Source: a virus
Length of the DNA stretch: 33,534 nucleotides
Strand: one strand, 5' to 3'
IMG/VR virus record: IMGVR_UViG_3300020446_000040
Location: 1 to 33,534 of that record
Part shown: positions 15,741 through 32,358 of the stretch, piece after piece
How positions within the stretch are numbered: position 1 is the stretch's first letter
Layout: the number at the start of each line of letters is the position of its first letter
Made by a program: the position numbers and the translations under genes
Notes under the pieces: model-generated
What the model was told of the DNA's origin: nothing
Databases searched by the model: none
What the model saw: the letters and a program-made list of their open reading frames with translations, nothing else

Positions 15741-16478
15741 TTATAATAAACCTTTATCTATTTTAAACCCCTTTAAAGCCGAATAAATCTTTTTGTATCT
15801 CCTCATTGCCACTCTTATGTCTTTAGTGGTTAATCCAGACAATTCTCTAATATATGCAAGAATCAAATTTTTATTATATTTATTCCCACTTTCAACTTGT
15901 TCAAATATAGTTTCCCAATTATCTAATACTTGCATTAAAGCATTACCTACTGCTAATTCATTTTCACTTAATTTACCGTGTTCTATTTCTGCTTTAATAT
16001 TTGCAGAAATTTCTTTAATAAATTCATCTAATGGCGTTTTATCACCTTCTTCGATTGTGTATTGATAATCATCCATTTCTTCAACGGATTTATAAACATC
16101 ATCATATGCTAAATCTGTTTTCATTCTTTTATCAGATTTAAGTAATTGTCCTAATAAATAATTTTTACAAATAGTTCCAAAATATGAATAAGCTTTTTTT
16201 CCTTGTTCAGGTTCAAACTTATTCATTTTCATTGCTAAAAATGATAGTGTATCTGCATGTAGATCTTCAAACTCCATATCTTTTCTATAGAGTTTATAAC
16301 GTCTAATGATTGATTCTATCATCTTATTAAGTGGAGCACGTAAACTTTTATTGTAAATTTTATTACGTTGGTGTTCATCCTCACAAGTCAAAAATTCCAC
16401 AACTGCTTTTTCCTCTTCAGGTCCGAAATATAAATTAGTGGTTCTTTTCCTACCTCTTTTTTTAATTTCTTCAGACAT
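15741..16478 (-). CDS. Late-transcription sigma factor, gp55-like
   Basis: Directs host RNA polymerase to late promoters. The 245-aa protein is smaller than a housekeeping sigma factor. A region-2-like segment lies around residues 65-120: FEDLHADTLSFLAMKMNKFE, then YSYFGTICKNYLLGQLLKSD. This is the helical -10-recognition region with the aromatic/basic pattern of sigma region 2.3-2.4. The C-terminal AYIRELSGLTTKDIRVAMRR looks like a helix-turn-helix. A T4 gp55 relation is inferred from size, layout and phage context. It abuts the upstream glycosyltransferase (no gap), so it is expressed from the long leftward transcript. Its likely targets are the ATATTTAT motifs catalogued here. Confidence 0.8.
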   Translation of the reverse strand: MSEEIKKRGRKRTTNLYFGPEEEKAVVEFLTCEDEHQRNKIYNKSLRAPLNKMIESIIRRYKLYRKDMEFEDLHADTLSFLAMKMNKFEPEQGKKAYSYFGTICKNYLLGQLLKSDKRMKTDLAYDDVYKSVEEMDDYQYTIEEGDKTPLDEFIKEISANIKAEIEHGKLSENELAVGNALMQVLDNWETIFEQVESGNKYNKNLILAYIRELSGLTTKDIRVAMRRYKKIYSALKGFKIDKGLL

Positions 16479-17276
16479 TTAAGTGGTTTCTACATCGTAT
16501 GTTATTTCTCTATCTTCAGTGAAAAAATATTCTTTTTTAGCTTTATTTACCCAAAATTTACTTTCAAGTACGTTAACAGTGTTTTTATATTCATCAAATA
16601 ATGATCCAGCACGATTATTAATATGTTTATATCCTAACTTAGGAATCACCATAATTTGGACATCTAAGTAACTTAATCTCAATAAAAATTCATAGGTAAA
16701 AGTTAACTTCATATGTTTCTTTAATCCACCATGTTCTTGAAATATTTCTTTATTTACTACCATCCCATCGAAATTGAAATTCTGTATTTTTTGTAAAGTT
16801 TCATTATCTAATAATCCCATATTTTCGGAAACATTTTGTACCCATACATTTTCATTTGTAAAAGATATAAACTCACCTTTTTCATTACATTCAAATACTA
16901 TTGGTAAAAATACTCCAACTTCAGGATATGATTCTCTATATTTTACAACATTATCAAACCATATTGGTGATAATACATCATCATACTCTAGAAAAGAAAA
17001 ATAGTTACTAGTAGATTGTTCTACACCATAATTTATTTGTGATTGAAAATCATAATTACCTGTTTCATTTTCAATAACTTTTGTAATTTTTTTAATTTTA
17101 CCATAATCAAAAGAATCTAAAAATTTAATTAACTTTTTATCGTTTGAACGTACAATTAAAACTTCATCTGGTAAAATCTTTTGTTCAATTATACTATTGA
17201 TTGCTTTTTCAAAATATTCACTAACACTATCATCTAATTTATGTATAGGAATAATTAAACTAATATCTGTTTTCAT
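16479..17276 (-). CDS. GT2-type glycosyltransferase
   Basis: 265 aa, GT-A fold. It begins with the family-2 pattern ISLIIPIHKLDDSVSEYFEK and PDEVLIVRSND at 36-46. The metal/nucleotide-sugar site is probably EYDDVLSP at 97-104 (a DxD variant), followed by the acceptor-side region with VNKEIFQEHGGL near 175. Retains the usual domain length for single-domain GT2 enzymes, with no membrane helix, so it probably acts in the cytoplasm on an activated sugar. It directly abuts the sigma-factor gene. Donor and acceptor cannot be told from sequence. Confidence 0.82.
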   Translation of the reverse strand: MKTDISLIIPIHKLDDSVSEYFEKAINSIIEQKILPDEVLIVRSNDKKLIKFLDSFDYGKIKKITKVIENETGNYDFQSQINYGVEQSTSNYFSFLEYDDVLSPIWFDNVVKYRESYPEVGVFLPIVFECNEKGEFISFTNENVWVQNVSENMGLLDNETLQKIQNFNFDGMVVNKEIFQEHGGLKKHMKLTFTYEFLLRLSYLDVQIMVIPKLGYKHINNRAGSLFDEYKNTVNVLESKFWVNKAKKEYFFTEDREITYDVETT

Positions 17277-17286
17277 AACTATTTTT

Positions 17287-18417: not shown

Positions 18418-18439
18418 TTTTTTTGTTTTTTTTTTATTG

Positions 18440-18754
18440 TTATAATTCTTTTAGTATACCCTTCATTAATAAGGTATTAAATGATAATTTAAATGGTATT
18501 GGTAATTGGTTTAGACCTACCATACCTAATTTATCGTCTACTACATCGTTGTAACTCAATACTGCTCCAATTAAATCTCTATACATTTCATATTTGGTGA
18601 CATCTATTTTTAGTGACGATAATGAGTCTTCTTCGTTATTTTCGTTTGGTACTTCTTCACATTTAGTTTCAACACCGTATTGTACTTGTTCTGCTAATTT
18701 ATCGATATCGAAATAAAATTCTTTACCCCCCACATTTAATAAAATATCATCCAT
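18440..18754 (-). CDS. Unknown 104-aa acidic protein
   Basis: No family recognised. N-terminus DDILLNVGGKEFYFDIDKLA looks beta-then-helix. The middle is acidic and Asn-rich (NENNEEDS), and the C-terminal half has YEMYRDLIGAVLSYNDVVDD followed by a hydrophobic segment ending LLMKGILKEL. It lies 22 bases upstream of the GT-B gene and 55 bases after the HAD-like gene, in the same transcript. Function unknown. Confidence 0.7.
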   Translation of the reverse strand: MDDILLNVGGKEFYFDIDKLAEQVQYGVETKCEEVPNENNEEDSLSSLKIDVTKYEMYRDLIGAVLSYNDVVDDKLGMVGLNQLPIPFKLSFNTLLMKGILKEL

Positions 18755-18809
18755 CTTAATCTTTTTTTTTAATGTAAATTATTATTCGAATAAGTAAACC
18801 TTAAATTAC

Positions 18810-19433
18810 TTATATATCTTCATATTCAATTGTTTCAGTACTTAAAATTTTTTCTAACATACTTTTATCTTCTAATAGTTCTTTTAAATCTACTACAGTA
18901 TAATCAGAATTATTATTTTTATTATATGTGTTGATAACCTTTACTGATACTTTATTATTTGGTTTAGTATCTAAAGTTTCAGGAGATGCAGTAATTAATA
19001 CATCTACATGTTCCCACTTATTTACATAATCTCTTACAAACTTAATATTATTAACTTTAGAAGATAGTTTAGATAAGAAAAATAAAGTTGCTGGTTTACT
19101 ATTGTTTAATTCTTTACTAATAATAATGGGGGTATGCCCCATATCTTCTATCATATTATGTAATTGGTTTAAATGTTCAACGGAATTTAATTTTACTTCA
19201 CCCGCATGACCAAATATTTCTAATGAAGCGTCTACATACATAAATTTATTTAATTGTTGAGTACCCCCACTAAATTCGAAATATTTTAATAAATCTAAAT
19301 CTTTAATATCTCTTTCAATTATTTTATTTTCACCTGTTTCTTCATCAATAATTGGGTAATATTTATCATAAACTAATTCAAATTTTGTTATAAAATCTCT
19401 TATAACACCATCTATCGTAATTCCTATTTTCAT
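18810..19433 (-). CDS. HAD-superfamily-like protein (5'-nucleotidase type), nucleophile position altered
   Basis: 207 aa. The N-terminus KIGITIDGVIRDF has the form of HAD motif I of nucleotidase-type enzymes (hhhhDxDGVhxDF). At the position of the nucleophilic Asp there is Thr5, while the second Asp (Asp7) is kept. A motif-II-like strand TPIIISKELNNSKPATLFFL follows near 105-124, and a candidate later motif is in FVRDYVNKWEHVDVLITASP (~132-151). Phage HAD proteins of this kind usually act on nucleotides or serve as DNA end phosphatases. With the nucleophile replaced, this one is probably inactive or works differently. It overlaps the PhoH gene by 4 bases (ATGA), so the two are coupled. Confidence 0.72.
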   Translation of the reverse strand: MKIGITIDGVIRDFITKFELVYDKYYPIIDEETGENKIIERDIKDLDLLKYFEFSGGTQQLNKFMYVDASLEIFGHAGEVKLNSVEHLNQLHNMIEDMGHTPIIISKELNNSKPATLFFLSKLSSKVNNIKFVRDYVNKWEHVDVLITASPETLDTKPNNKVSVKVINTYNKNNNSDYTVVDLKELLEDKSMLEKILSTETIEYEDI

Positions 19434-20179
19434 TGTTCTAATTTTTCAAATACCTCTTCTATTTTTTTTATTATTGGGTTTCTAACTACATCATTAGGAT
19501 TTCTAAGTTGTACACAACCGAATCCTTCAACATCTTTGAATTTATCCAATACTATTTCTAAAGAAGAATCTTTTTTATTTCTTATATCTTTTTGTCTTAC
19601 GTCCCCCATAATAACCATTTTAGAATTATCACCTATTCTAGTCATTAATGTTCTTATGTTATCCATTGATATGTTTTGTGCTTCATCAATTAGTATTATA
19701 GAGTTATCTATACTTCTTCCTCTCGCAAATGCGATGGGAACAATTTCAATAACACCTAATTCAATTAGTTTTTCCATCCTACTTCTACCAATTAATTTTC
19801 TAATATTATCAGTGAAAGATTCCATAATTGGTGCCATTTTATCTTTTAATTCACCCGGTAAATGTCCTATTTCTTCACCTTTTAACGCAGTAATAGATTT
19901 AACTAAAACAATTCTTTTGTATTTAGGTCTAGATTTTATTAATTTAAGTGCTTCTGCACATGATAAAAATGTTTTTCCCGATCCCGGTAATCCACTACAA
20001 ATAGTAATTTCGTTTTGTTTGATTGAATTAACTAATTTTTTTTGATTTTCTGTTTTACACTTAACGTGTACAGAGATGGTTTGGAATACTTTTTCTTCTT
20101 CTACATTATTCCTATTTAGGAATAATTCCATTTCTTCTATCTCTTCTTGTGAAAGTTGTTTGTTCTTTCTTCTACCCAT
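19430..20179 (-). CDS. phoH: PhoH-like ATPase
   Basis: 249 aa P-loop NTPase. Walker A GLPGSGKT at 63-70, Walker B ILIDEAQN at 161-168, and the family's GDVRQKD near 192-198. The helix between (VKSITALKGEEIGHLPGELK) is the conserved PhoH core. PhoH-type proteins are RNA/DNA-associated ATPases of unclear role and are common in phages, including marine and Bacteroidota phages. The N-terminal ~35 residues are charged and specific to this protein. Coupled to the HAD-like gene by a 4-base overlap. Identification is firm, function in infection is not. Confidence 0.92.
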   Translation of the reverse strand: MGRRKNKQLSQEEIEEMELFLNRNNVEEEKVFQTISVHVKCKTENQKKLVNSIKQNEITICSGLPGSGKTFLSCAEALKLIKSRPKYKRIVLVKSITALKGEEIGHLPGELKDKMAPIMESFTDNIRKLIGRSRMEKLIELGVIEIVPIAFARGRSIDNSIILIDEAQNISMDNIRTLMTRIGDNSKMVIMGDVRQKDIRNKKDSSLEIVLDKFKDVEGFGCVQLRNPNDVVRNPIIKKIEEVFEKLEQ

Positions 20180-20238
20180 ATAAAATTATTTTATATTAAT
20201 ATATGGGTAAAATGAAATAAAGTATATGATTAATTATA

Positions 20239-20290
20239 TTTTTTTATTATTAAATAACCAATCATCTATATAGGTTTCTTTAATTTCCAT
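20239..20290 (-). other. Possible 17-18-codon reading frame in the gap before phoH
   Basis: The 115-base gap between phoH and the GT8-like gene holds a minus-strand ATG at 20288-20290, starting with MEIKETYIDDWLF and ending after about 18 codons. It lies 4 bases after the stop of the GT8-like gene. It may be a tiny peptide, a remnant of a longer gene, or chance. The rest of the gap is AT-rich with no hairpin or promoter I recognise. Confidence 0.2.
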
Positions 20291-20294
20291 AATA

Positions 20295-21113
20295 TTAAAT
20301 ATTTTTAAAAAAGTTTTCCATATACTTCAACTCTACAAGAGGATAGCTAGTATTAATTTTTTTAAAAACACTATCATTTTTTACTTCACAATAAAATTTA
20401 TAATGATTTTTATAATTATCTTTAACTATCTGATTTTTAACTGCTGGTGGTAAATTACTTTTGTACCCCCTCCAAATACCTAAATGTAATCCGTGATGTG
20501 GTCCACTCCCTCCTATATCTATTTTAAATTTATTTTGAGGTAATTTACCTATACCTTTGTTAATTATATCGTATAATAAATGTTCATTTCTGTAACGTTG
20601 GGATAAAGATAGTTTTCTATTTTTTAGTTTTGTTGAGTATTGTTTTATAATATTAGACATTTTTTCATAATATTCTTTAACTTTAAAAAAGTGTAAACCG
20701 GTAAATCTTTTTTGTTTAGGTCTTATAGAATTACTATACGGTAAGTTATTATTTTTTAAATGTGTTATATGGGTTTCTCCGAGTGTAGGGGTTTCTTTAC
20801 ATATTAATATATCTACATCACCAATATACACATAATCAAAATCACTAAATACATCTTCAGGTATTACCCATCTAATAGATTTCAATTTTTGGTTATCTTT
20901 GGGGTATCCCGCAAAAAATCCTTCTTCAATAGAAACTAAATCGTTGTTAATAACATTAATTAATTCTTTAGTCTTTTCAGATAAACTTCCTAAAAATAAA
21001 ACTTTTATAAAATAATTAGGGTAAGATTTAGTTATAAAATAAATAAAATAAGGAATATATTTTTCATAATTTTTATTAACAACTACCGATATACAAATTT
21101 TATTATTCATCAC
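20295..21113 (-). CDS. GT8-like glycosyltransferase
   Basis: 272 aa, GT-A type. Starts with CISVVVNKNYEKYIPYFIYF. The metal-binding DxD is in FDYVYIGDVDILI with Asp99-Val-Asp101, the classical 'YLDxDxL' site of GT8-type retaining transferases. A C-terminal GSGPHHGLHLGIWRG (about 197-211) corresponds to the His/Gly-rich acceptor and second metal site region. No signal peptide. It follows the 302-aa gene after 22 bases in the leftward transcript. Sugar and acceptor unknown. Confidence 0.75.
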   Translation of the reverse strand: MMNNKICISVVVNKNYEKYIPYFIYFITKSYPNYFIKVLFLGSLSEKTKELINVINNDLVSIEEGFFAGYPKDNQKLKSIRWVIPEDVFSDFDYVYIGDVDILICKETPTLGETHITHLKNNNLPYSNSIRPKQKRFTGLHFFKVKEYYEKMSNIIKQYSTKLKNRKLSLSQRYRNEHLLYDIINKGIGKLPQNKFKIDIGGSGPHHGLHLGIWRGYKSNLPPAVKNQIVKDNYKNHYKFYCEVKNDSVFKKINTSYPLVELKYMENFFKNI

Positions 21114-21135
21114 ACTACAAATTTTTTATTTAAGT

Positions 21136-22044
21136 TTAATTTAATATATTATTTTTAACAAATTCTAAAGAAGTATGTTTTTTTGTCCACTCATACTGTT
21201 TTTTTGAAATCGATTTTATTTTATCAGGATTTTCAATAAAATCTTCAATGGTTTTACGTAATTCACTAGGATTAATACTTATACTAGGAGGGTTTTCAAA
21301 AAAAGGTTCAGTGATTAATTGTGGTGAGCTAGTAATAAGTACATTTTTAACTAACATAGCCTCTAAACCTGATTTACCAATACCACCCTTAAAACCTAAT
21401 AATTTTTTAGACAAAGAAGTAGATACCATTTGATCTATAAAAATATGTGTTTTTTCTTTAATTTTTATACAATCACTCCATTTTTTATCTCTAATCACTA
21501 TTAGTTTTTGATCGTGTAAAGTTCTTTTAATAAATTTAGTACCTTTTAAGTTACTAGAGTATTTTAAACCTGGAGAATGAGAAAAAGTAAGTTCCTCATA
21601 TTTTTGTATTTCTTTATCTAATGGTATTCCTATGTGTTGAAAATATGGTTTATATTTAATAGATTTATCCAAAAAAGGTATTTTATCAGGCATTATTAAT
21701 ACTTTTACATTAGGGTTATTTTTTAAAATATTATTAACTCTTTTATTTTTCTTTAAAAATCTACCATCACTTATTACTATTATTAATTCTTTATTCTTAA
21801 ATTTTTTTAATTCTATATTATCTAAAGATATTGCACCAAAAATAATTATTCTTTTAGAATTTTTTAATAAGTTAACACATAATTTAGTATTCTTTTCATA
21901 AAAAAATTTATTTTTAATCATAGAATCAAAATCTCTTCTTACCGACCTAACTAATATTGTACAACTATTTTCTATGTGGTTAGCAATAAAACTTATACCC
22001 CCATAGGAAGAGTCGTTAGAAAATAAAACTGTTTCTACCGACAT
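21136..22044 (-). CDS. Glycosyltransferase-like protein (GT-B C-terminal domain)
   Basis: 302 aa, very Lys/Ile/Asn-rich. The C-terminal half holds LLGFKGGIGKSGLEAMLVKN followed by VLITSSPQLI, which resembles the nucleotide-sugar loop (G..GxxxLEAM) of GT1/GT4 enzymes, then the family-typical final helix with ENPDKIKSISKKQYEW. The N-terminal half has short Rossmann-type strands (RIIIFGAIS; ELIIVISDG) but is shorter than usual, so the donor-binding half is clearer than the acceptor half. It is 3 bases from the LpxD-like gene. A glycosyltransferase role is likely, specificity unknown. Confidence 0.65.
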   Translation of the reverse strand: MSVETVLFSNDSSYGGISFIANHIENSCTILVRSVRRDFDSMIKNKFFYEKNTKLCVNLLKNSKRIIIFGAISLDNIELKKFKNKELIIVISDGRFLKKNKRVNNILKNNPNVKVLIMPDKIPFLDKSIKYKPYFQHIGIPLDKEIQKYEELTFSHSPGLKYSSNLKGTKFIKRTLHDQKLIVIRDKKWSDCIKIKEKTHIFIDQMVSTSLSKKLLGFKGGIGKSGLEAMLVKNVLITSSPQLITEPFFENPPSISINPSELRKTIEDFIENPDKIKSISKKQYEWTKKHTSLEFVKNNILN

Positions 22045-22047
22045 AAT

Positions 22048-22932
22048 TTATTTTTTAATTATTTTTGCTGGTGTTCCAACATAAGTATTATTAGAATCTG
22101 CATTACTATTTAGAAAAGAATTAGCCCCTAAAGTAACATTAGAACCTACATTCATACCATTTTTTAAAGATGCGTTTATACCACAATAAAAATTCTCACC
22201 TATTGTATTAGAACCAGCAACTACACAATGTGAAGTAAATAGTGAATTTTCACCTATTATACAATTATGTCCAATGTTAGTATAAGAACCTAATTTACAA
22301 CCTTTTTTAATAATAGTATTTTCTAATGCACCCTTTTTAATATCACTATGTGAACCAATTTCTACATTATCTTCTATTATAAGCCCCCCTATCTGAGGAA
22401 ATCTAATCCACTCATCATTTGTGTTTTTTTCAAATCCCATACCGTTAGTACCTAAACAGGAATTTTCTCTTATTATACAATTTTCACCAATAGTAACATT
22501 ACTATGGATAACTACGTTAGGATATAGTATCGTACCTTCACCTATAATAACATTTTTAGAAATATGAACGTTATCCATTATTGTAATATTAGGTGAATTA
22601 TTTTTATGATAGTCAACATAGTTTGTGGGATTAATTTTTTCCTCAACTAATTTTAAAATTAAAATATAAGTTAACCTAGAGGTAGTTTCCTCACAAACTA
22701 AATGAATAATATTTGGGTTTAATTTTTTAAGTTTTTTTAGTGTGTTATAATCACGCTCACTAATAATTAAAATTCCGTTAACAAAATTATTATAAAAACT
22801 AATATTTTTAACCCAATATAAACAATCTTCAGATGTATCTTCTTTTTTACCAATTCTAAGATTTTCAAAAACACATTCATCTTTAAATTTTACATTACCT
22901 AGTTTTAATATGTCCTTAACTTTTACTTTCAT
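22048..22932 (-). CDS. LpxD-like sugar N-acyltransferase, left-handed beta-helix
   Basis: LpxD adds an acyl chain to the free 2-amino group of an acylated UDP-glucosamine in lipid A synthesis. The 294-aa product (start MKVKVKDIL chosen because it overlaps the upstream gene by only 17 bases; a longer frame to 23010 lies inside that gene) has an N-terminal ~110-residue domain with ILIISERDY, like LpxD's uridine-binding domain, then hexapeptide repeats (IIGEG, TIGEN, EIGSH, IIGEN). Diagnostic LpxD features are NGMGF and WIRFPQIGG, the segment EIGSHSDIKKGAL, and NIGHN with His222 at the catalytic-His position. The C-terminus is YVGTPAKIIKK. It differs from cellular enzymes in low-complexity Asn richness. 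Acyl donor and sugar are unknown. Confidence 0.85.
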   Translation of the reverse strand: MKVKVKDILKLGNVKFKDECVFENLRIGKKEDTSEDCLYWVKNISFYNNFVNGILIISERDYNTLKKLKKLNPNIIHLVCEETTSRLTYILILKLVEEKINPTNYVDYHKNNSPNITIMDNVHISKNVIIGEGTILYPNVVIHSNVTIGENCIIRENSCLGTNGMGFEKNTNDEWIRFPQIGGLIIEDNVEIGSHSDIKKGALENTIIKKGCKLGSYTNIGHNCIIGENSLFTSHCVVAGSNTIGENFYCGINASLKNGMNVGSNVTLGANSFLNSNADSNNTYVGTPAKIIKK

Positions 22933-23428
22933 AAAGTTCTTTTTCTTTATGATACTTCTTTGCCGGATTACCAAAGTAAATCCCACTATCCATAATGTCT
23001 TTATTGACAAAAGACAATGAACCTATTGTAGTATTATTTACTATAGAAATACCATGTTGTAAAACACTATTAGTGCCTATGAAACATTTAGCACCAATTT
23101 TAGCACCACCTATTTGTATTTTTCCTGAATCTAAATTATTCGTCATAACTCTAGGACAAACATAAGTATCATCACCAATTTCTACTCCTCTAGCGATTAT
23201 TGAATCATATCTTAGTGTAACTCTATCACCAATCTTACAATTTCCTGAAGTAGAAACTCTAGAATCAATATAACAGTCTTCACCAATGATGGTGTTTTTT
23301 CTAAGTTCTACATAATTTTTAATAATTGTGTTATCACCAATGATAACATCTTCTTCTATCACACAAAAACTTCCTATTTGAACGTTTTCTCCGATAATTG
23401 CTTTTTCTGATATATTATTCATTTTCAT
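22916..23428 (-). CDS. Hexapeptide-repeat acyltransferase (left-handed beta-helix)
   Basis: 170 aa made almost wholly of hexapeptide repeats ([IV]G-x-x-x-x), for example IIGEN, QIGSF, IIGDN, IIGED, KIGDR, EIGDD, KIGAK and TIGSL, ending in the classic IYFGNPAKKYHK. This is the fold of LpxA and of sugar O- and N-acetyltransferases that use acetyl-CoA or acyl carrier protein. There is no LpxD-type N-terminal domain, so it is more like a simple sugar acetyltransferase than LpxA proper. It overlaps the LpxD-like gene by 17 bases and is directly downstream of the deacetylase gene, so it may act on the same sugar. Confidence 0.85.
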   Translation of the reverse strand: MKMNNISEKAIIGENVQIGSFCVIEEDVIIGDNTIIKNYVELRKNTIIGEDCYIDSRVSTSGNCKIGDRVTLRYDSIIARGVEIGDDTYVCPRVMTNNLDSGKIQIGGAKIGAKCFIGTNSVLQHGISIVNNTTIGSLSFVNKDIMDSGIYFGNPAKKYHKEKELYESKS

Positions 23429-23444
23429 AATTTTTTTGTTTTTG

Positions 23445-24089
23445 TTATAGTATCCATCTTATTACTTCAAAACATTCAGCGTATAAAGTATTTATCTGTA
23501 CCCCCCTAGTTCTAGCTAATGACTTTACGAATTCTTCGTTAGCATAGGGTCTATGAGATTGAGATAAGTATTGTTTTATCGCTTCAATTTTTTTATTAAT
23601 GTGTTTTTCCTCTAATTTCATAAAAGAAGTAGTATTAAATGTTAAATTATTCCAAGGTAATTCATACGACAGTAAACTACTAAATTTAAACGCTCTAAAC
23701 CCTTCTTGTGCAATAGTATAATGATCTTGATGTACATCGGTTAATGAAGGTATAAAAACTATATCGGGTTGTATACTCTTTTTGAGTGTTAAAATATCAT
23801 CTAATATTTCTTGTCGTTGGTAATTAAATGTTCTTACGTTATAATCTAAAAGGATTAAATTATCTTTTGGGATACCTAAAACCTTACTAGCTTTTTTAAT
23901 TTCAGTAATTAAAATATCTTCAGGAAATTCTTTTTTAACTGATTGTTTACATGCAGAAAACGCTGCACAATAAACAATATTGCCGTCTTCTATTAACTTA
24001 TTTACTGTTCCACCACAACCAAACTCTAAATCATCAGTATGTGGGGAAAGAACTAAAACTTTTTTATTTTTAATATTCATCGTATACAT
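23445..24089 (-). CDS. PIG-L/LmbE-type N-deacetylase
   Basis: 214 aa. Zinc-dependent deacetylases of this family remove the N-acetyl group from GlcNAc-containing compounds. Motif 1 is VLVLSPHTDDLEFGCGGT with His17, Asp19 and Asp20 (canonical PHPDD; here PHTDD), and the third metal ligand is in DVHQDH at 117-122 (canonical HPDH). The active-site set is complete despite the Pro to Thr and Pro to Gln changes. No signal peptide, so cytoplasmic. The start MYTMN at 24089 overlaps the tri-modular glycosyltransferase by 20 bases; an internal ATG at 24080 is an alternative. Its products could be the free-amine substrates for the two acyltransferases just downstream. Confidence 0.85.
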   Translation of the reverse strand: MYTMNIKNKKVLVLSPHTDDLEFGCGGTVNKLIEDGNIVYCAAFSACKQSVKKEFPEDILITEIKKASKVLGIPKDNLILLDYNVRTFNYQRQEILDDILTLKKSIQPDIVFIPSLTDVHQDHYTIAQEGFRAFKFSSLLSYELPWNNLTFNTTSFMKLEEKHINKKIEAIKQYLSQSHRPYANEEFVKSLARTRGVQINTLYAECFEVIRWIL

Positions 24090-26505
24090 CTAACCAATCG
24101 TTATTAACATCTAAAAATTCAATAATATCATCTGCGACATTTTCACTATTTTCATTTCTTTTATCATATTCATTATTTATATGATTAATAATATCTTCTA
24201 CTGTTTTATAATTCAAAGAATTAGGTGTATTACCATTATGTACACAATGTCTTCCTGTTAACCCCATTTCTAAAACTGTATTAGGTAAACCATCATGTTT
24301 AGTTAACCTTAAACCAATAAAACAACTTTCATAAACTTTTTCTAACTCTTCTTCACTAAACGATTTCGCATTAGCTTCTATGATATTGTAATCAGTTTTT
24401 TCTTTAATAATATCTACTAAATCTCCACCGTATTTAATTCTATCTTCACCACTATAAAAGTATATGTTTTCACCTTTTTTCTCTTTATAATTTTTAATTG
24501 GTGTTGTAGGTGTTATAGGTAATAATATATGTGGTATATTTTTTTTAGTTAAGGTTTCCGAGATGAATTTAGATTTCGCAATATGTCTTATTTTACCTGC
24601 TTGATTAATTAAATCTTTATTTAAAAATTGTGCATCCGAACCACACCAAACAACCGTCTTATGTCCTTTATGGTTTATTAGTGCCATATAATCTTGCATA
24701 GTATATATTCCATTGAATATACAAGGTTTGTTAATATCTGTGTATTCATTTAAACCGTATTTTTTTAATAACTTATTTTTAAAAAAACTTAAACCTGGCG
24801 CTACTCTCATTTGTGTAATAGTAGTAGGGGTATTAATCTTTTCATCAACTTGATTTATTACTCTTTTATATAAATCTATATATTGTTCTGTAATATAATC
24901 TGTATTAAATAAATTCATATCTTTTGGAAATATATCATCTTTTATTTCCTCTATATCACCTGCGGGATCCACTAAATATCCAATCCCTTTTTTATTGTGT
25001 TTAAATCCTTCTATTAAAGTTCGTCCTAAATATGAACCACATACTTTTTCACATTTCTCATATAACTCACTTAAATCTGACATTTCTTCAAAATATGTTA
25101 CGTGTTCGTTTTCTTCACTTATTTTTTTAGCATAACCAAAATCATTATCGTTACCAACTAAAACTAAATTTTGCCCCTTTGATTTGGTTTTTTCCGTAAT
25201 ATCATACACCATCTCTTTTCTAAGATAATTCATTGTACCCGGTAATAAAACGAAATTTTCAATGTTAATACTTTCTTTAACGTTCTTATTATTATTTTTT
25301 TTATCTTCAGTTATATTATATATCATTTCAATATCTGATTCTTTAATTTCTTTAAAATTTTTACACATATGTTCCTTAACTGGATCACTTATTGCAATAT
25401 ATTTTTTAATTTTTTCATCAAATAAAGGATATTCTACGGGTAAAGTTCTAGAACGTACAATGTTAACAAATTTGTTTTGTGGAAAAAGATTTAACAAAGT
25501 CTTACCTATTGGTTGATGATTTATCTGAATAATATCAAATTTCTCATCTTTTATTTTATAAAGTTTATTTTTTTCAGAAACTATTATTTTACCATTCATA
25601 TTTAGTACCCATTTTCCATCACCTTTTTTATAACCAGGAGGAGTATCTAAATTATGTAATTTAATCCCTATTTTTTTTGCCTTTTTTTCTAAAATCCCCC
25701 CTATATTTGAATAGACATGTACCTCACACCCTTTTTCTTTTAGTGATTTTGATAATTCAAAGGTTGAGATTTCAGATCCGGTTAATCCATTATAATTCAT
25801 ACACCCCAATAAAACTTTTAATTTTCTATTCTCAAAATTCTCATCTACATGCATGGGTAAATTTTGTTCATTATTCTTAACAAAAAGTTTTCTGTTTTCT
25901 TCCCACTCTACATTAGTCTGCCCTATAGACATATGATTAATTCTAACTTTGGTAATTACACCAACCTTACATCCTTTAATTTTATTTTCTACACAGAAAG
26001 TTACATCATAAAAATGAAAACCTTTCACATCTTCATTAAACGTAGTTTTTATTTTGTCTTTTTTAAATGAAAACCATAATCCATCTACTAAAACTACCTC
26101 TTCTACGTTGTCACCTAAATCATCACTGTATACACTTAACCAACTTTTATTATTATGGGTGTGTTTAACTTTACCATACATTTTTTGTTGATTGTCCCAC
26201 CATCTTCCACTTTTACTTAATTCTTTAGTACCTGCAACACCAATTATACTATATTGAGGATTTCTATCATATATTTTTAATAATTTCTTACCCCATTGTT
26301 TAGTTTCTATCATTATATCATCATGACATATAACAATAGTATCATATTTTGCTTCTTTAATACCTCTATTATAACATTTAGTTAAAGACTCACCATTATT
26401 AATTATTTCAATTACTTCGATATGTTTATGAAGTCCAGATGATTTAATAATGTGTTCTTTATGTGAGGGCTTAGTTTCTCTAGTACAGTATATAACACTA
26501 ATCAT
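24070..26505 (-). CDS. Tri-modular glycosyltransferase (GT2 plus two GT-B-like modules)
   Basis: 811 aa. Residues ~1-200 are a GT2-type domain: ISVIYCTRETKPSHKEHI, a substrate loop with NNGESLTKCYNRGI, and a metal site in VICHDDIMIE (Asp62-Asp63 region). Residues ~225-560 are GT-B-like: VLLGCMNYNGLTGSEISTFE begins a first Rossmann half with the family's N-terminal glycine/helix pattern, and the second half has FVLLPGTMNYLRKEMVYDI and LYEKCEKVCGSYLGRTLIEG. Residues ~600-811 form a third module ending in GLRLTKHDGLPNTVLEMGLT, again a GT4-type C-terminal motif. No membrane helices. Fusions of this kind can build a short glycan in one protein. The 52-aa gene upstream overlaps its start by 8 bases. 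Confidence 0.8.
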   Translation of the reverse strand: MISVIYCTRETKPSHKEHIIKSSGLHKHIEVIEIINNGESLTKCYNRGIKEAKYDTIVICHDDIMIETKQWGKKLLKIYDRNPQYSIIGVAGTKELSKSGRWWDNQQKMYGKVKHTHNNKSWLSVYSDDLGDNVEEVVLVDGLWFSFKKDKIKTTFNEDVKGFHFYDVTFCVENKIKGCKVGVITKVRINHMSIGQTNVEWEENRKLFVKNNEQNLPMHVDENFENRKLKVLLGCMNYNGLTGSEISTFELSKSLKEKGCEVHVYSNIGGILEKKAKKIGIKLHNLDTPPGYKKGDGKWVLNMNGKIIVSEKNKLYKIKDEKFDIIQINHQPIGKTLLNLFPQNKFVNIVRSRTLPVEYPLFDEKIKKYIAISDPVKEHMCKNFKEIKESDIEMIYNITEDKKNNNKNVKESINIENFVLLPGTMNYLRKEMVYDITEKTKSKGQNLVLVGNDNDFGYAKKISEENEHVTYFEEMSDLSELYEKCEKVCGSYLGRTLIEGFKHNKKGIGYLVDPAGDIEEIKDDIFPKDMNLFNTDYITEQYIDLYKRVINQVDEKINTPTTITQMRVAPGLSFFKNKLLKKYGLNEYTDINKPCIFNGIYTMQDYMALINHKGHKTVVWCGSDAQFLNKDLINQAGKIRHIAKSKFISETLTKKNIPHILLPITPTTPIKNYKEKKGENIYFYSGEDRIKYGGDLVDIIKEKTDYNIIEANAKSFSEEELEKVYESCFIGLRLTKHDGLPNTVLEMGLTGRHCVHNGNTPNSLNYKTVEDIINHINNEYDKRNENSENVADDIIEFLDVNNDWLDVYDEY

Positions 26506-26656
26506 TTTTTAATTGTTTTAACCGATCTTCTAATTCAAGCATTTTATCCTCCACCCATTTTATAAGCCATCCATTACTATACTCGCTCATCACTAATTCT
26601 ACCTCTAATTTTTGAAGGTATTTTTCGATTTTTTTAATCTCTTCTTCTTTCCCCAT
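26498..26656 (-). CDS. Small coiled-coil protein, 52 aa
   Basis: Minus-strand frame from ATG at 26656 to TAG at 26498. The product begins MGKEEEIKKIEKYLQKLEVE and continues through LVMSEYSNGWLIKWVEDKML to a charged end (LEDRLKQLKND). It is almost wholly helical and charged. Support: it fills the only sizeable gap between dUTPase (stop 26662, 5 bases upstream) and the tri-modular glycosyltransferase, whose start it overlaps by 8 bases, as expected for a coupled gene. Function unknown. Confidence 0.6.
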   Translation of the reverse strand: MGKEEEIKKIEKYLQKLEVELVMSEYSNGWLIKWVEDKMLELEDRLKQLKND

Positions 26657-26661
26657 ACTTT

Positions 26662-27282
26662 TTAATTTTTACCTGTTGATCCAAACCCACTATTACCTCT
26701 ACTAGTAGATGATAGATTTTTATCTTCACTATTTACTAATTGAGACACATTTTGATTTACTACGTTCATAATAACGCCTTGTGCAATTCTATCACCATCT
26801 TCAATGGTATATTTGTCATTACTTAAATTTATTACTATAATACCAACATCCCCTCTATATCCTTCATCTACTGTTCCTGGTGTATTTAATACTGTAATAC
26901 CATGTTTTAATGTCATACCACTTCTAGGTCTAACTTGAAGTTCAGTATTAGGAGATAATTCAAAACTTAATCCAGTAGGTATTAATTTTCTCTCTAATGG
27001 TTTTAGTGTTATTGATTCTTTTAATGAAGCCCTAATATCGAAACCACTATCACCTACATGTGCATATGTAGGATCAGGATTATTACTTTTATTAACAAAC
27101 TTAGTAATAGTTTTTAATTGTCCATTTTCATGTAAGTTTTTATAATGTTCAACTACGTTAGTAATGTTATTGACACCATCATCGATGTTAGTTCCATTAC
27201 CATATTCGTTAACCATAGTTGTTATTTCATCTAAAATTTTATTTAAATCCTCAATACTATTTTCATTATATTCTTCACCCAT
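26662..27282 (-). CDS. dut: dUTPase (trimeric type) with N-terminal extension
   Basis: Hydrolyses dUTP to dUMP and pyrophosphate, keeping uracil out of phage DNA and feeding dTMP synthesis. All five motifs are present: AHVGDSGFDIRA (74-85), RPRSG (118-122), the motif-3 region NTPGTVDEGYRGD (133-145), RIAQG (165-169), and the C-terminal arm SRGNSGFGSTG (194-204). A motif-3 difference is VDEGYRG where most have IDxxYRG, leaving the catalytic Asp. The ~55 N-terminal residues are acidic, helical and absent from minimal dUTPases. The start overlaps the HD-like gene stop by one base, so the two are coupled. Confidence 0.95.
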   Translation of the reverse strand: MGEEYNENSIEDLNKILDEITTMVNEYGNGTNIDDGVNNITNVVEHYKNLHENGQLKTITKFVNKSNNPDPTYAHVGDSGFDIRASLKESITLKPLERKLIPTGLSFELSPNTELQVRPRSGMTLKHGITVLNTPGTVDEGYRGDVGIIVINLSNDKYTIEDGDRIAQGVIMNVVNQNVSQLVNSEDKNLSSTSRGNSGFGSTGKN

Positions 27283-27857
27283 TACTTATTGTTTTTTTCT
27301 TCTATTATCGCTAATTCATTAGCTTGTTTAAGTATTGTAGACAAAGTACTACCATACCATTTTGATTGTTTGTCATCATCAGGTTTATCATAATTTACTA
27401 TTGCCTGATATTCTTCCTCACTTAATGTAACACCATATTTCATAGCGTAATAAACTGATCTTTCACCTATTTTCATTGAAGTAATGTCTTCATTAAACTC
27501 ATACATTTTTCCTTGATTAGTTCTATGCCATTCAGATTCGCACCATTTATAAAGAAAAGTTTTACCTATTTGGTGTAAAAAACACACCTTAACTATGGAT
27601 TGTGCATCTACGGATAAACTATCAGGTAATAATTTATTTATACCTATAGCATATTTGGTGGTTTTAAGAACGTGATCAATTAACCCACCAGGAAAAGCAT
27701 TATGTAAAGATGTCATAGTCGATGCAGGTGCAGTTAATAAATCTTCACCTAAATAATCTAATAATTCTTTATTTAATATACCATACAACTTATTCTTTTC
27801 TAAGAAAGTTTGTTTATTTTTTAATATTTTATCTTTTAATTCTACTGTTTTTGACAT
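27282..27857 (-). CDS. HD-domain-like protein with His-Gln in place of His-Asp
   Basis: 191 aa. The pattern is LHNAFPGGLIDHVLKTTKYA (51-70) then CFLHQIGKTFLYKW (92-105), which matches the first His and the HDxGK block of HD-type phosphohydrolases (H...HD). The HD dyad reads His95-Gln96, so one metal-ligand Asp is missing. The surrounding residues (GK after it, DHVL before it) are kept, so this is a degenerate or changed active site rather than an unrelated fold. HD enzymes act on nucleotides or 3' RNA ends; being coupled to dUTPase, a nucleotide-related role is plausible but catalysis is doubtful. Confidence 0.7.
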   Translation of the reverse strand: MSKTVELKDKILKNKQTFLEKNKLYGILNKELLDYLGEDLLTAPASTMTSLHNAFPGGLIDHVLKTTKYAIGINKLLPDSLSVDAQSIVKVCFLHQIGKTFLYKWCESEWHRTNQGKMYEFNEDITSMKIGERSVYYAMKYGVTLSEEEYQAIVNYDKPDDDKQSKWYGSTLSTILKQANELAIIEEKNNK

Positions 27858-27892
27858 AATTTTAAATTTTCTTTAAAAATAATTAATTTATT

Positions 27893-29149
27893 TTAAAACA
27901 TCAAATTTTTTGCAGGTTCTTTTTTATTTATTAATGATTTGTAAAGTAATAATCGTTTTTCACAAACAGATTTCATATCATATTTACCATTTACTTTTTT
28001 ATATAGATTCTCACCTAATTTTTCGATTTCTTTAGGATTTTCAATTAAATATTTAATATGTTTAAACCAAAACTTATGATTTTTATTTTCAGGTATTAAT
28101 ATACCATTACATTTCTCAGTATTATAATTACCTCCTCTTTCATATGCATTTTCAATGTCTATTTGATAAGGTCCAAAATCTTGTCCTATTAAAGCTTTCT
28201 TATGAAATCCAGCTTCTATTACTTTTAACTGAGATTTAACTCTATTAAAGTCACTTTCTTTAAGTGGTGCTAAAGAAACATCAAATAGATTATAATTAGA
28301 TGCGTAACTAGTAATTGGTTTAGTCCATATTCTTCTATAGGGTTCATTTTTTACGTTTTCATATTCTTTCTTTTCAAATTTAAGTAAAAAATCTTTATAT
28401 TCTGGACTAACAATTTTATAATTATCAGTAAATATTTTTTCGTATTTATACCATACACTTTCTTTTGGTTTAATAGGTCTTTGTTTTTGTTTACCAGTTT
28501 CTCTATCAATTACAGTCATAGTTCCTCTTAAATCATATCCACATAATACAAATTGTACTTTATCTATTAAACCTGCAGATTTGATACTACTTACTACACC
28601 AGATAAAATTTCTAAATCTTTTAAGTGAGAAGATCCACCTAACCAACCTATACGAACTCTATCACTTTTTTCTGTATTACTTTTATATTGTTTTTCTTCT
28701 GGATTAATTGCGTTAGGTAAAACAAATACATTTTGATTAAATTTTGTTATTTCTTTCGCAAAAATAGGTGTAGTTGTAGTTATGTTACGAGCAATTTTTA
28801 AATTATCTGCAATCTTTTTATTTAATTTTTGTTGTTTAATAATTGCCCAAGCTGGGTGATCAGGACCCGGTGCCCAATGATCATCAATATCCATAATAGT
28901 GGTTATACCTAACTCATCACATCTCTTAAGAACAGACTCTATTTTTTCATATGGACCTAATGTTCTATGGTAATGAATTAAATCATATTGTTTTAAGAAA
29001 TCATCACTCTCCAAATCTGGCTCATAATCTATATCTACATAAAAGTCGTTAGGATAATATTCTTGTAATTTAATGTGGGGTATTGTAGAACGGTAATAAG
29101 ATACACCTGTTCTATCACTAGGTACTACTAAAATTTTTAATTTACTCAT
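27893..29149 (-). CDS. GT-B-type glycosyltransferase (GT4-like)
   Basis: 418 aa. N-terminal half: LKILVVPSDRTGVSYYRSTI (4-23), YDLIHYHRTLGP, and the strand TTIMDIDDHW (83-92). The second half begins at RVRIGWLGGSSHLKDLEIL (about 165-183), the classic start of the GT4 nucleotide-sugar domain, then a long region with PITSYASNYNLFDVSLAPLK and the end helix NPKEIEKLGENLYKKV. Length is normal for the family. Its start codon lies in a 15-bp AT-rich inverted repeat (29150-29188). First glycan gene of the leftward block. Confidence 0.85.
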   Translation of the reverse strand: MSKLKILVVPSDRTGVSYYRSTIPHIKLQEYYPNDFYVDIDYEPDLESDDFLKQYDLIHYHRTLGPYEKIESVLKRCDELGITTIMDIDDHWAPGPDHPAWAIIKQQKLNKKIADNLKIARNITTTTPIFAKEITKFNQNVFVLPNAINPEEKQYKSNTEKSDRVRIGWLGGSSHLKDLEILSGVVSSIKSAGLIDKVQFVLCGYDLRGTMTVIDRETGKQKQRPIKPKESVWYKYEKIFTDNYKIVSPEYKDFLLKFEKKEYENVKNEPYRRIWTKPITSYASNYNLFDVSLAPLKESDFNRVKSQLKVIEAGFHKKALIGQDFGPYQIDIENAYERGGNYNTEKCNGILIPENKNHKFWFKHIKYLIENPKEIEKLGENLYKKVNGKYDMKSVCEKRLLLYKSLINKKEPAKNLMF

Positions 29150-29200: not shown

Positions 29201-30178
29201 TTATAAATTTTTTACAACGTTTGTTTTAAAATCTTTTTTATAGGGTTCTAAATCTATAGGCTCAATCGGTATCGCTTTTATTTCTTCTTCAATAGGTGTA
29301 GTATAATAATATGGTCCCCATTCAGTATATCCCTCACCAATACCAAAAATACCAATATCTGGAAAACGATTTTGTGCGAATAGTAATCTAACAAAATTAT
29401 CTTTTAATTGAAAACCTACATCGATAAAACTATCAATATACTGATATTTAGTACTTAAGTTAACAGATTCTATTTTAATATTCACATATCTATCATCTAC
29501 GATCTCTATGGAAACCGTACCGGAACCATAAACTTCGAAGTAAATAGCACCACCTATATTTAAATCTCCGTTAATAGAAATATTGATTGTACCATCATTT
29601 AAATTATAATCTTTAAATATAATCTCATTTATTTCATATTTAACATCAACATTTCTTAATTTATTCCATTGTGTTTTTACAAATCCAACATTAACCGGTG
29701 ATTTAACAGGTAAAAATTCACCTAATTTAGTTTTATCGTCAAAAGGTAATTGATTGTTAACTGCCGTATTTATAAGGTTTATTATTAAATCTTTATTTTC
29801 TCGTGTAGATAAAATTTCTACGATGTCTTCTGTCTTACCCTCAACAAACTTTATAATGTTTGAGACTGCTTTTGCGTAATCTATACCAAATTGATCACCG
29901 TTAGTTTCAAATCCAAAGTCAGATAGTACTTTTGATAGGTCTTCTACACTATTAATAGTATTATTATCACCCATTAAATAAACACCTAGTGCTTTTGCAG
30001 TCATATCACCAAATCCAGGCGCACCAGTATCTATGCCCGTATGTTTTTCTATAAATTTTTGTATTTCATAATAATTGGGTCCTGGTAATTCTTGTTCTGT
30101 AACTATATTACCGTATAATCTTTCTTCATTAAATAAAGATTTTATTCTAATAATTTCACTTAGAAAATGTTTTTCCAT
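29201..30178 (-). CDS. Unknown 325-aa protein, structural-type
   Basis: No family recognised. Soluble, with a charged helical N-terminus (LSEIIRIKSLFNEERLYG) and the distinctive EKHTGIDTGAPGFGDMTAKALGVYL near 42-66 (partly quoted), which looks like a lysozyme- or peptidoglycan-binding-like helical motif but no catalytic pattern is evident. The C-terminal half is beta-rich (INISINGDLNIGGAIYFEVY; SIEIVDDRYVNIKIESVNLS). The last residues are Pro/Glu-rich. It has its own late-type motif only 4 bases before the start codon, so it is probably a virion protein. Role unknown. Confidence 0.7.
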   Translation of the reverse strand: MEKHFLSEIIRIKSLFNEERLYGNIVTEQELPGPNYYEIQKFIEKHTGIDTGAPGFGDMTAKALGVYLMGDNNTINSVEDLSKVLSDFGFETNGDQFGIDYAKAVSNIIKFVEGKTEDIVEILSTRENKDLIINLINTAVNNQLPFDDKTKLGEFLPVKSPVNVGFVKTQWNKLRNVDVKYEINEIIFKDYNLNDGTINISINGDLNIGGAIYFEVYGSGTVSIEIVDDRYVNIKIESVNLSTKYQYIDSFIDVGFQLKDNFVRLLFAQNRFPDIGIFGIGEGYTEWGPYYYTTPIEEEIKAIPIEPIDLEPYKKDFKTNVVKNL

Positions 30179-30182
30179 AATA

Positions 30183-30190
30183 ATAAATAT
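30183..30190 (-). promoter_or_regulatory. Putative late promoter motif before the 325-aa gene
   Basis: On the minus strand: AAAATATATTTATTATTATGG, with ATATTTAT ending 4 bases before the ATG. If it is a -10-type element the transcript would start at or inside the start codon, so either transcripts are nearly leaderless or the motif has another role here. Confidence 0.4.
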
Positions 30191-30208
30191 ATTTTTTTTT
30201 AATAAAAA

Positions 30209-30239
30209 TTTGGTGGTTTAAATTTTTTTTGTATATTTG
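30209..30239 (+). promoter_or_regulatory. Host-like promoter, copy 1
   Basis: TTTG at 30209-30212 and TATATTTG at 30232-30239, 19 bases apart, an exact match to the Bacteroidota pattern. The spacer GTGGTTTAAATTTTTTTTG is closely repeated in the next two promoters. Confidence 0.75.
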
Positions 30240-30267
30240 TCACATCAAACCACTAAATGTTAATAAT

Positions 30268-30795
30268 ATGTTAAATTTATCAGATTACTCAAAAATTTAT
30301 AAAACAACTTTTAAAAATGGGGATGTTCATTTTGGTAGAGTTGTATCCTCTAAAAAATATTCACCTAAAATTTATTTGAATGATCAAATTAGTAAAGTCA
30401 AATCTAATAGTAAAAACCCTAATAGAATTAATATGACTACTGAGTTTGAGTTGAGGGTACAAAGAGAGATAGATACTGTTAAATGTGAAATAGTTTTTGA
30501 GGGTTTGACTGCGGAATGTTGTCAAAAAAAGGATTCTTTGATATATAATAGTAAACAATGTATTAATTACAGAAAAAGTGTAATGAATAAAAAAAGAGTT
30601 GACGTACCAAGAACGATTAAAAAGGATTATGTTAAAAAATTAATTAATCCTACTACTAAAGAAATTTTTTATTACGTAGATTGGAGTTGGGCTAAGTCTC
30701 ATCCATATTTCTCTAAACACATATCAATCGATAAATCTCATCCATTACACCCTAATTTTAAAAAATTGACAATAGAAAATATAAAAATCTTATAA
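30268..30795 (+). CDS. Unknown 175-aa protein of the early cassette
   Basis: No family recognised. A TTG at 30229 lies inside the promoter, so the ATG at 30268 (MLNLSDYSKIY) is taken as start; an out-of-frame ATG lies at 30257. The product is basic, with a beta-type N-terminus, two adjacent Cys in EGLTAECCQKKDSLIY, and an aromatic C-terminal motif FYYVDWSWAKSHPYFSKH. The many Lys/Arg residues fit a nucleic-acid or host-protein binder. It is the first of three rightward genes with similar host-like promoters, inside an otherwise leftward region, so an early host-takeover role is plausible but unproven. Confidence 0.7.
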   Translation: MLNLSDYSKIYKTTFKNGDVHFGRVVSSKKYSPKIYLNDQISKVKSNSKNPNRINMTTEFELRVQREIDTVKCEIVFEGLTAECCQKKDSLIYNSKQCINYRKSVMNKKRVDVPRTIKKDYVKKLINPTTKEIFYYVDWSWAKSHPYFSKHISIDKSHPLHPNFKKLTIENIKIL

Positions 30796-30799
30796 AAAA

Positions 30800-30831
30800 T
30801 TTGGTAGATTAAAAAATTTTTTGTAATTTAG
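30800..30831 (+). promoter_or_regulatory. Host-like promoter, copy 2
   Basis: TTTG at 30800-30803 and TAATTTAG at 30824-30831 (one mismatch to TAnnTTTG), 20 bases apart. The spacer again contains the TTTAAAAA-TTTTTTG pattern seen in the other two copies. Confidence 0.65.
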
Positions 30832-30852
30832 TATTATAAAAATTAAACAACT

Positions 30853-31137
30853 ATGAAATATTTTAATAGACACGAATGTATGGGTAAAAAAACCCTAAGA
30901 AGTATTAGTGAGGCAACAACAGAACTATTCGGCATAGATGGTGTTAGTCCTTTTGGTGGTGTAGGTAATATGTTATACGGTTTGTATGACGGTTTTGACT
31001 ACTCAGATAAAATTCGTTCACACGAAGATATGGAAACCATTAAAAGTCAAAAAATGGATTTGTATGAAAAGATTTTAAATATCTGTAAGGATGTAGATAC
31101 ATACCCTAAACACGAACATGATGTAACCGTACATTAA
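30853..31137 (+). CDS. Unknown 94-aa protein of the early cassette
   Basis: No family recognised. Contains a Gly-rich middle (FGIDGVSPFGGVGNMLYGLY) and a charged helical end (KSQKMDLYEKILNICKDV), ending in a His-rich tail (KHEHDVTVH). Start ATG at 30853 is in the context ACAACTATGAAA. Likely an early gene read from its own host-like promoter; role unknown. Confidence 0.7.
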   Translation: MKYFNRHECMGKKTLRSISEATTELFGIDGVSPFGGVGNMLYGLYDGFDYSDKIRSHEDMETIKSQKMDLYEKILNICKDVDTYPKHEHDVTVH

Positions 31138-31153
31138 AAAAACTTCTAAAAAG

Positions 31154-31184
31154 TTTGGCAGTTTAAAAATTTTTTGTATCTTTA
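31154..31184 (+). promoter_or_regulatory. Host-like promoter, copy 3
   Basis: TTTG at 31154-31157 and TATCTTTA at 31177-31184 (last base differs from consensus), 19 bases apart. The spacer GCAGTTTAAAAATTTTTTG is almost the same as in the other two copies. Confidence 0.7.
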
Positions 31185-31204
31185 CAATATCAAATCAAAT
31201 AACT

Positions 31205-31771
31205 ATGGGAAATTCAGAAATCACAATCAGAGTACAAAATTACAACGGTAATAACGGATTTATTAATTCATTACAGAATGGGTTAAAAAAATATGGTAAA
31301 TTAACCGAAAGACAACTTTTGGCGGCAGGTAAATTTTTTACTAAACTTAATAACTCAACTCAAACACAACAACCTAAAGAGGTTAATGTGGATATCAAAA
31401 TTACTAAATTCATTGCTAAGAGAGTTGCGGAAGAGAATGAATTAGAGTTTAGACCTTTTTTAATGACTATTAGTAAGGTTTTGAAAGAGACTGAAAGAGC
31501 GTATCAAGTAGTTGGTAAACTAACTGTTTCAGATGTTTCATCTTGTAGAGTGTGTGGTAGAGATTTAACGGATTGGAGATCACAGGCGACTGGTGTAGGA
31601 CCAGTTTGTTCCAAAACATTAGGTATACCATATGTAAAGAATGAATTAGATGTTGCAGTTTATAAGAAACTACTTAAAATGAAAATTGATAAAATTGGAG
31701 ATTTAACTTTTTGGTTGGCAAAATCACAAATTGTCGAAGGAAAAGAAGATTTAGAAAATAGTTTAAAATAA
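31205..31771 (+). CDS. Early protein with small Cys motif (DUF6011-like)
   Basis: 188 aa. Residues ~112-138 hold CRVCGRDLTDWRSQATGVGP followed by VC, a small cysteine motif (Cys-x2-Cys and a later GxGPxC) like that of DUF6011-type domains, which may bind zinc. The N-terminal region has KYGKLTERQLLAAGKFFTK near 29-47, a helical pattern often seen with it in DNA-associated phage proteins. Only three obvious Cys are in the motif, so if zinc is bound, a fourth ligand must come from elsewhere. Start ATG at 31205 (ATAACTATGGG) follows the third host-like promoter; the gene ends at a terminator. Function unknown. Confidence 0.75.
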   Translation: MGNSEITIRVQNYNGNNGFINSLQNGLKKYGKLTERQLLAAGKFFTKLNNSTQTQQPKEVNVDIKITKFIAKRVAEENELEFRPFLMTISKVLKETERAYQVVGKLTVSDVSSCRVCGRDLTDWRSQATGVGPVCSKTLGIPYVKNELDVAVYKKLLKMKIDKIGDLTFWLAKSQIVEGKEDLENSLK

Positions 31772-31773
31772 AA

Positions 31774-31799
31774 AAACCCTCTTCGGAGGGTTTCTTTTT
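31774..31799. terminator. Bidirectional rho-independent terminator with UUCG loop
   Basis: AAACCCTC-TTCG-GAGGGTTT is a strong stem with the very stable UUCG tetraloop on the plus strand, followed by C and five T's. On the minus strand the loop is CGAA and the stem is followed by a run of T's, so it can end both the rightward early cassette and the leftward 186-aa gene whose stop codon is at 31798-31800. Confidence 0.92.
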
Positions 31800-32358
31800 A
31801 TACTCTTTTTTTCTTTTTTGTTGGTAGTGGTTTTAATTTACCACCGAATATTGTATCACCTATTTTGATTTTAATATCTTCAGTTACTAAAGATTTATCT
31901 AAATACTCTTCTACAACCTCTTTAACTACATCCCCTATCTCTTCTCTAACTATTTGTCTAATATCATTAGTTTCATAATTAGATGTGGGTGTTGGTAGTG
32001 GTTGTTGTGTGGGAACACTTTCATTTACTAAGTCTTGTACATCTGATAATTCAAAAGTATGATTAGGAGACTCAGGAATCTCTATTGGGTTATTAACCAT
32101 TGCATCTAATACTTCTTTAGGCATCTTAGATGTTTTTAAATTCCTATATTGTCCATTTTGTGGTGCTACTGACCTAGTACTACCCTTAGAATGTCTACTA
32201 ATGTAATCTTCTGTTAAGTTCGGTATTTCTTTTTCTTCAGATGAAAAAGAATTACCACCTTGTGTATTTTTAATAGTAGAACCATGATTTTCATCAGTTT
32301 TTTGCATTACCGCTTTAGATCTACTTAATATTTCTGCTAATTTACTTGCGTTACTCAT
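31798..32358 (-). CDS. Unknown 186-aa protein, structural-type
   Basis: No family recognised. Polar, with a Pro/Thr/Gln-rich linker near residues 110-125 (QQPLPTPTSNYE) and a helical, charged segment IVREEIGDVVKEVVEEYLDK (~135-154). The C-terminus is strongly basic (KKKKRV). No signal peptide. It is 2 bases downstream of the WYL-like gene and ends at the bidirectional terminator, closing the leftward transcript. It is probably a virion-associated or assembly protein, but this is inference from position. Confidence 0.7.
   Translation of the reverse strand: MSNASKLAEILSRSKAVMQKTDENHGSTIKNTQGGNSFSSEEKEIPNLTEDYISRHSKGSTRSVAPQNGQYRNLKTSKMPKEVLDAMVNNPIEIPESPNHTFELSDVQDLVNESVPTQQPLPTPTSNYETNDIRQIVREEIGDVVKEVVEEYLDKSLVTEDIKIKIGDTIFGGKLKPLPTKKKKRV

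Follow-up and report, generated by a model that had tools for sequence, protein, structure and literature searches.

The early promoters (Pe) of phage T4 are excellent promoters for the host sigma factor that carry extra consensus past the host elements, and in the T4 middle promoters the -35 box is replaced (PMC2988021). In T4-type phages, repeated early promoters with stem-loops, termed PeSLs, have been proposed as mediators of gene shuffling (Arbiol 2010; Comeau 2014, both as cited in PMC4503421). The primary (sigma-ABfr) promoters of Bacteroidota comprise TTTG at -33 and TAnnTTTG at -7 (PMC6847099). In our literature searches we found no account of the transcription programme in T4-related phages of Bacteroidota. 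We analyzed a 33,534-nt stretch of IMGVR_UViG_3300020446_000040 (the window), containing a fragment of a phage distantly related to T4 with terminase, portal, prohead protease, gp23-type capsid protein and PhoH, and took the genomic context from the 198,361-base contig G001, which is 99.9-100% identical to the window over its length. We consider it likely that three separately promoted early-type units form an island in a leftward late block of a T4-related Bacteroidota phage, each unit carrying a strong host-sigma promoter (Table 1).

A sequence-only reading of the window had described three rightward ORFs, each preceded by TTTG, a 19-20 base spacer and a TAnnTTTR box, and these are indeed present, with the -7 box of P2 one base off this form. 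P1 matches TTTG/TAnnTTTG in full, with about 19-20 bases between the elements, and P3 ends in A; the boxes thus agree with the Bacteroidota primary form to which they had been assigned (PMC6847099). The joint pattern TTTGGNNNNTTAAAWWWTTTTTTGTANNTTTR, allowing up to 3 mismatches, has exactly 3 sites in the window (30209, 30800 and 31154) and none in 100 dinucleotide shuffles of it. The suggestion that these promoters are near-copies of each other extends from the boxes to the three spacers compared, whose mean identity is 0.75 vs. 0.49 across all pairs of host-like promoters in G001, a likeness equalled by 10 of the 1330 promoter triples in the genome. Furthermore, window 31147-31208 displays an 81% match to G001 190004-190067, continuing through the leader up to the start codon, and the AACTATG noted earlier at the starts at 30853 and 31205 is common to both. 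The island had also been said to face the wrong way; this is correct locally but not genome-wide, because 157 of the 199 ORFs in G001 point rightward.

Table 1. Features of the island and of related loci (window coordinates unless stated)
Feature	Position	Strand	Remarks
gp55-like late sigma factor, weak match	15741..16478	-	phrog_234 E=0.0039; sigma70-ECF E=0.00033, below cut-off
Divergent 325-aa gene	29201..30178	-	shared N-terminal leader peptide; in segment 29203-30789 missing from relatives
Late-type box TATATTTAT	30183..30191	-	precedes divergent leftward gene
Promoter P1	30209..30239	+	TTTG-N19-TATATTTG, extended spacer; equals G001 30276-30306
Gene 1	30268..30795	+	175 aa from ATG 30268, or 188 aa from TTG 30229; no detectable family
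Promoter P2	30800..30831	+	TTTG-N20-TAATTTAG; conserved in G002-G005 and L033
Gene 2	30853..31137	+	94 aa; phage family outside Pfam/NCBIfam, without significant PHROG
Promoter P3	31154..31184	+	TTTG-N19-TATCTTTA
Gene 3	31205..31771	+	188 aa; helicase-like N-terminal ~95 aa plus DUF6011 Cys motif
Intrinsic terminator	31774..31793		between gene 3 and convergent leftward gene 31798-32358

Defining the host-like class as TTTG-N18-21-TAnnTTTR within 90 bases upstream of an ORF, we found such promoters ahead of 20 of the 199 G001 ORFs, compared with 1.0 in shuffles and 7 on the opposite strand. The genes behind them encode DNA polymerase B, primase, a DenV-like pyrimidine-dimer glycosylase, a DUF932 protein, a polyA/CCA polymerase and small unknowns; the search for further copies in the genome, as proposed by the earlier reading, has revealed strong enrichment ahead of replication and repair genes. 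A second motif, ATATTTAT, emerged without prior assumption ahead of 48 ORFs vs. 3.6 expected; as ATATTTAT(A/T), it precedes 47 ORFs (5.8 in shuffles, 13 on the opposite strand), including portal, prohead protease and many long genes, and also an SNF2 helicase. Sorted by box, 17 ORFs have the host-like class only, 46 the late-type only, 3 both and 133 neither, and the two classes are not clean because some late-box genes, the SNF2 helicase being an example, are non-virion. Within 90 bases upstream of genes 1-3, the late-type box is absent and only the host-like class is found, while the divergent 325-aa neighbour belongs to the late-type class. Since genes 1-3 carry the host-like class only, we regard their putative early status, as judged from promoter class and gene company, as well supported in silico.

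On the sense strand, the box ATATTTATA displayed a strand bias of 31:15 in G001, 16:1 in Flavobacterium phage immuto (NC_055915) and 17:6 in Microcystis phage Mel-JY01 (PP395634); it lies ahead of terminase, portal and other virion genes, and in this lineage we propose it as a candidate late promoter. When reverse-complemented, the core TATTTATA gives the T4 late box, TATAAATA. The gp55-like protein is a candidate reader of the late-type box. Together, host-like early boxes and ATATTTATA late boxes provide a testable two-class model. Mel-JY01 also has the closest annotated portal (41.7%), and PP395634 53694-66146 harbors several Bacteroidota-type TTTG-N20-TAnnTTTG sites though the recorded host is Microcystis, so this host is worth checking.

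Several features of the surrounding region were observed in passing. The leftward block at window 16479-29149 comprises, as seen by eye from the translations, a long run of glycosyltransferase, acyltransferase-like and sugar-modifying genes, with one glycosyltransferase confirmed, and a protein encoded between the prohead protease and the capsid protein (window 6444-6806) contains a tandem 26-residue repeat (YGGNKGDESRSHRDYMEEGDDMYEGK). An N-terminal leader (e.g. MEKNISEEIKRIKTLFTEERLYGNLV) is common to otherwise unlike proteins, with leader-bearing loci at window 30104-30178 (minus strand), G001 72324-72767 and 76498-77355, and L071 1660-2460 and 2472-4610; possibly it serves the capsid targeting or processing of internal virion proteins. 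As for translation, Shine-Dalgarno-like sites are found in 1 of 172 leaders in G001, and the leaders are A-rich at -3 and at -11 to -13; Flavobacterium leaders likewise are without Shine-Dalgarno sites and A-rich at those positions (PMC6847099). This near absence of Shine-Dalgarno sites, in conjunction with A-rich leaders as in Flavobacterium, supports the predicted Bacteroidota host of the phage.

Among the three genes of the island, gene 1 was seen solely in this phage and the near-identical contig G001, and is absent from relatives. By eye, it had been considered a GIY-YIG endonuclease, an idea that we rejected because in G001 the PF01541 HMM had no hit with an E-value of 10 or lower, whereas a GIY-YIG gene of known type was detected in L062. 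Gene 2 is one of 18 loci that form a family marked by the motif FxRH...NMLYGLYDG, with no match in Pfam or NCBIfam and a single weak match in PHROG (E=0.017); the family represents small phage proteins that occur across many viral contigs and are modelled by none of the profile libraries searched. Among its distant loci, 6 of 11 carry a host-type promoter immediately ahead of the gene. The dN/dS values of genes 2 and 3 (0.07-0.36) indicate purifying selection. The last member of the cassette, already recognized as a Cys-motif protein, contains DUF6011 (PF19474; 37.7 bits vs. the Pfam gathering cut-off of 26.6), a domain for which our literature search found no description. Compared with DUF6011 proteins, gene 3 has an extra N-terminal region: its first ~95 residues are similar to the N-terminal part of the SNF2-type helicase that the phage itself encodes (E=1e-5 in a pairwise comparison, E=0.001 in a search of 199 proteins). 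A tblastn search among annotated phages found no match to gene 3, and an alignment-based search found no relatives past close kin. Given the helicase-type N-terminal region and the Cys motif, we surmise that the gene 3 product most likely binds nucleic acid and assists in the DNA metabolism of the phage. AlphaFold modelling of gene 1 (from a single sequence, pLDDT 46) and of gene 2 (from 7 sequences, pLDDT 55) did not reach the quality needed for fold comparison, and PDB sequence searches yielded nothing useful.

The extended promoter, comprising both boxes and the conserved spacer, was found in 37 stretches among 2.9 million viral contigs, mostly ahead of unrelated small genes, whereas the same boxes with a scrambled spacer of the same composition had no match in that collection. 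In 84,980 bacterial genomes it was found in 6 stretches, but 37 vs. 6 is not a normalised rate, given that the two collections are unlike in size and composition. These six comprise two phage contigs that belong to a single-cell genome, one match inside a Romboutsia gene, which is probably due to chance, and three in Bacteroidales, one of them ahead of a kinase-like gene. A search of eight cultured phages yielded a single 3-mismatch site, in Tenacibaculum phage PTm1, and the genome of Flavobacterium phage immuto had no match; annotated phages, searched at the DNA level with the promoter region, had weak AT-rich matches only, and the literature searched contained no description of the extended promoter. 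As an observation apart, the same promoter precedes a GIY-YIG homing-type endonuclease gene in L062 (704-735, minus strand). It is conceivable, although we hold this only tentatively, that Bacteroidota viruses have in TTTGGYRGTTTAAAAWATTTTTTGTAnnTTTR a "super-promoter" peculiar to phages: a mobile unit of promoter and leader that unrelated phages pass to each other along with any gene behind it, and whose conserved spacer confers a benefit not exploited by host genes.

Relatives of the phage differ in what lies behind the promoters. In G002-G005 as well as in L033, segment 29203-30789 with the 325-aa gene, P1 and gene 1 is missing, with P2-gene 2-P3-gene 3 being kept. In G006, a 173-aa gene replaces gene 2 behind the same promoter, and in L034 the same 173-aa gene and gene 2 adjoin the primase gene behind one promoter copy; in L071 the promoter is followed by a different small gene, which runs antisense to genes with the leader. 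Judging from these arrangements, the genes of the island are exchangeable as cassettes that follow a common promoter. In the window, the flank preceding P1 matches the P2 flank in 3 of 4 relatives compared (0.2-0.6% of shuffles), and L024 lacks the match, while the flank upstream of P2 in the window has no match to the P2 flank of relatives (31-43% of shuffles). Entry of gene 1 at a promoter repeat would be expected to leave such a pattern, but it is only suggestive because the matching stretch, one of many comparisons, is short (34 bases) and T-rich. Separately, an ECF-type sigma factor gene lies directly after the gene 2 homologue in L034 (6300-6788), beside the primase. Both L034 and L071 (QCKH01000004 and QCKH01000012) are contigs in the Prochlorococcus single-cell genome AG-409-L21, while promoters and leaders indicate a host among the Bacteroidota; perhaps they represent a co-sorted virus.

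Could these promoters resemble each other without having been copied? Chance resemblance might be suspected in a genome of 28% G+C with T-rich intergenic regions, but it is refuted by the shuffles, the scrambled pattern and the conservation of the promoters in relatives, leaving it a negligible probability. Convergence deserves more attention, although we are inclined to doubt it: the host RNA polymerase may work best with this exact spacer, with each gene having independently gained or kept an optimal promoter and neither duplication nor movement taking place. In keeping with this, spacer likeness reaches in part other G001 promoters (190954, 0.68-0.84; 132210, 0.68-0.85), the form is common to unrelated phages, and T4 early promoters also have a consensus past the host elements (PMC2988021); spacer similarity could be selected rather than copied, a point that counts against the island of moving units that we prefer. 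However, the form almost never occurs in Bacteroidota hosts, though strong promoters are needed there too, and the 81% match to G001 runs on from the promoter through the leader as far as the start codon.

The conserved spacer might also be the binding site of a phage or host factor, in which case the promoters would be middle-type or factor-dependent and not plain early. We deem this unlikely: conservation far past both boxes in unrelated phages and the near absence of the extended promoter from hosts would fit such a site, but both host boxes are retained, unlike T4 middle promoters with their replaced -35 box (PMC2988021), and no factor was identified. The sequence-only reading had suggested host takeover or anti-defence as a role of the cassette, and the genes are indeed small, variable, early-type and at an exchangeable site. 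This role now seems improbable to us, as gene 3 has features of DNA metabolism and looks nucleic-acid-associated, gene 2 is situated among replication genes in L034, and a PADLOC profile search with genes 1-3 found no match, though PADLOC covers defence proteins and counter-defence is outside its reach.

Returning to the reading that we prefer, the promoter sequences, their enrichment and association with gene classes, the terminator, and the exchange among relatives of genes that follow the promoter were computed directly. Under this model, each unit would comprise a strong promoter read by the primary sigma factor of the host in unmodified form and a short A-rich leader without a Shine-Dalgarno site, followed by one small gene, and a shared terminator would close the island ahead of the convergent late genes. 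We infer that host RNA polymerase would read P1-P3 as soon as infection begins, and that gene gain may have involved crossover at the promoter repeats. Against this reading stand the off-consensus -7 box of P2, the incomplete separation of the two box classes and the 133 ORFs that carry neither box. The promoter copies look like units moving with their genes, set facing the other way among late virion genes.

How does this island compare with the described systems? Like T4 Pe, P1-P3 are predicted to be host-sigma promoters with added consensus ahead of small early-type genes in a T4-related phage; they differ in having Bacteroidota -33/-7 elements and a conserved spacer in place of the sigma-70 UP/-35/TGn/-10 arrangement. 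With the bacterial sigma-ABfr promoters they share the TTTG and TAnnTTTG elements (PMC6847099), but the spacer TTTAAAAWATTTTTTG and the GYRG after TTTG are common to phages and nearly absent from bacterial genomes; this compact, apparently strong promoter is offered for Bacteroidota genetics. The repeated early-type promoter between exchangeable small genes is reminiscent of PeSLs, as far as these are described in the citing source (PMC4503421). Unlike PeSLs, however, there is no stem-loop terminator before P1, P2 or P3, where folds are weak or none, and the only terminator-like site lies after gene 3 at the end of the island; we therefore do not class the island as a PeSL, because the promoter-joined stem-loop is absent. 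As in T4, early-type promoters are thus repeated between exchangeable genes, here with no stem-loops; the best reading of the island is a Bacteroidota counterpart of the T4 early promoters that moves in cassettes linked to genes and does not have the stem-loop of a PeSL.
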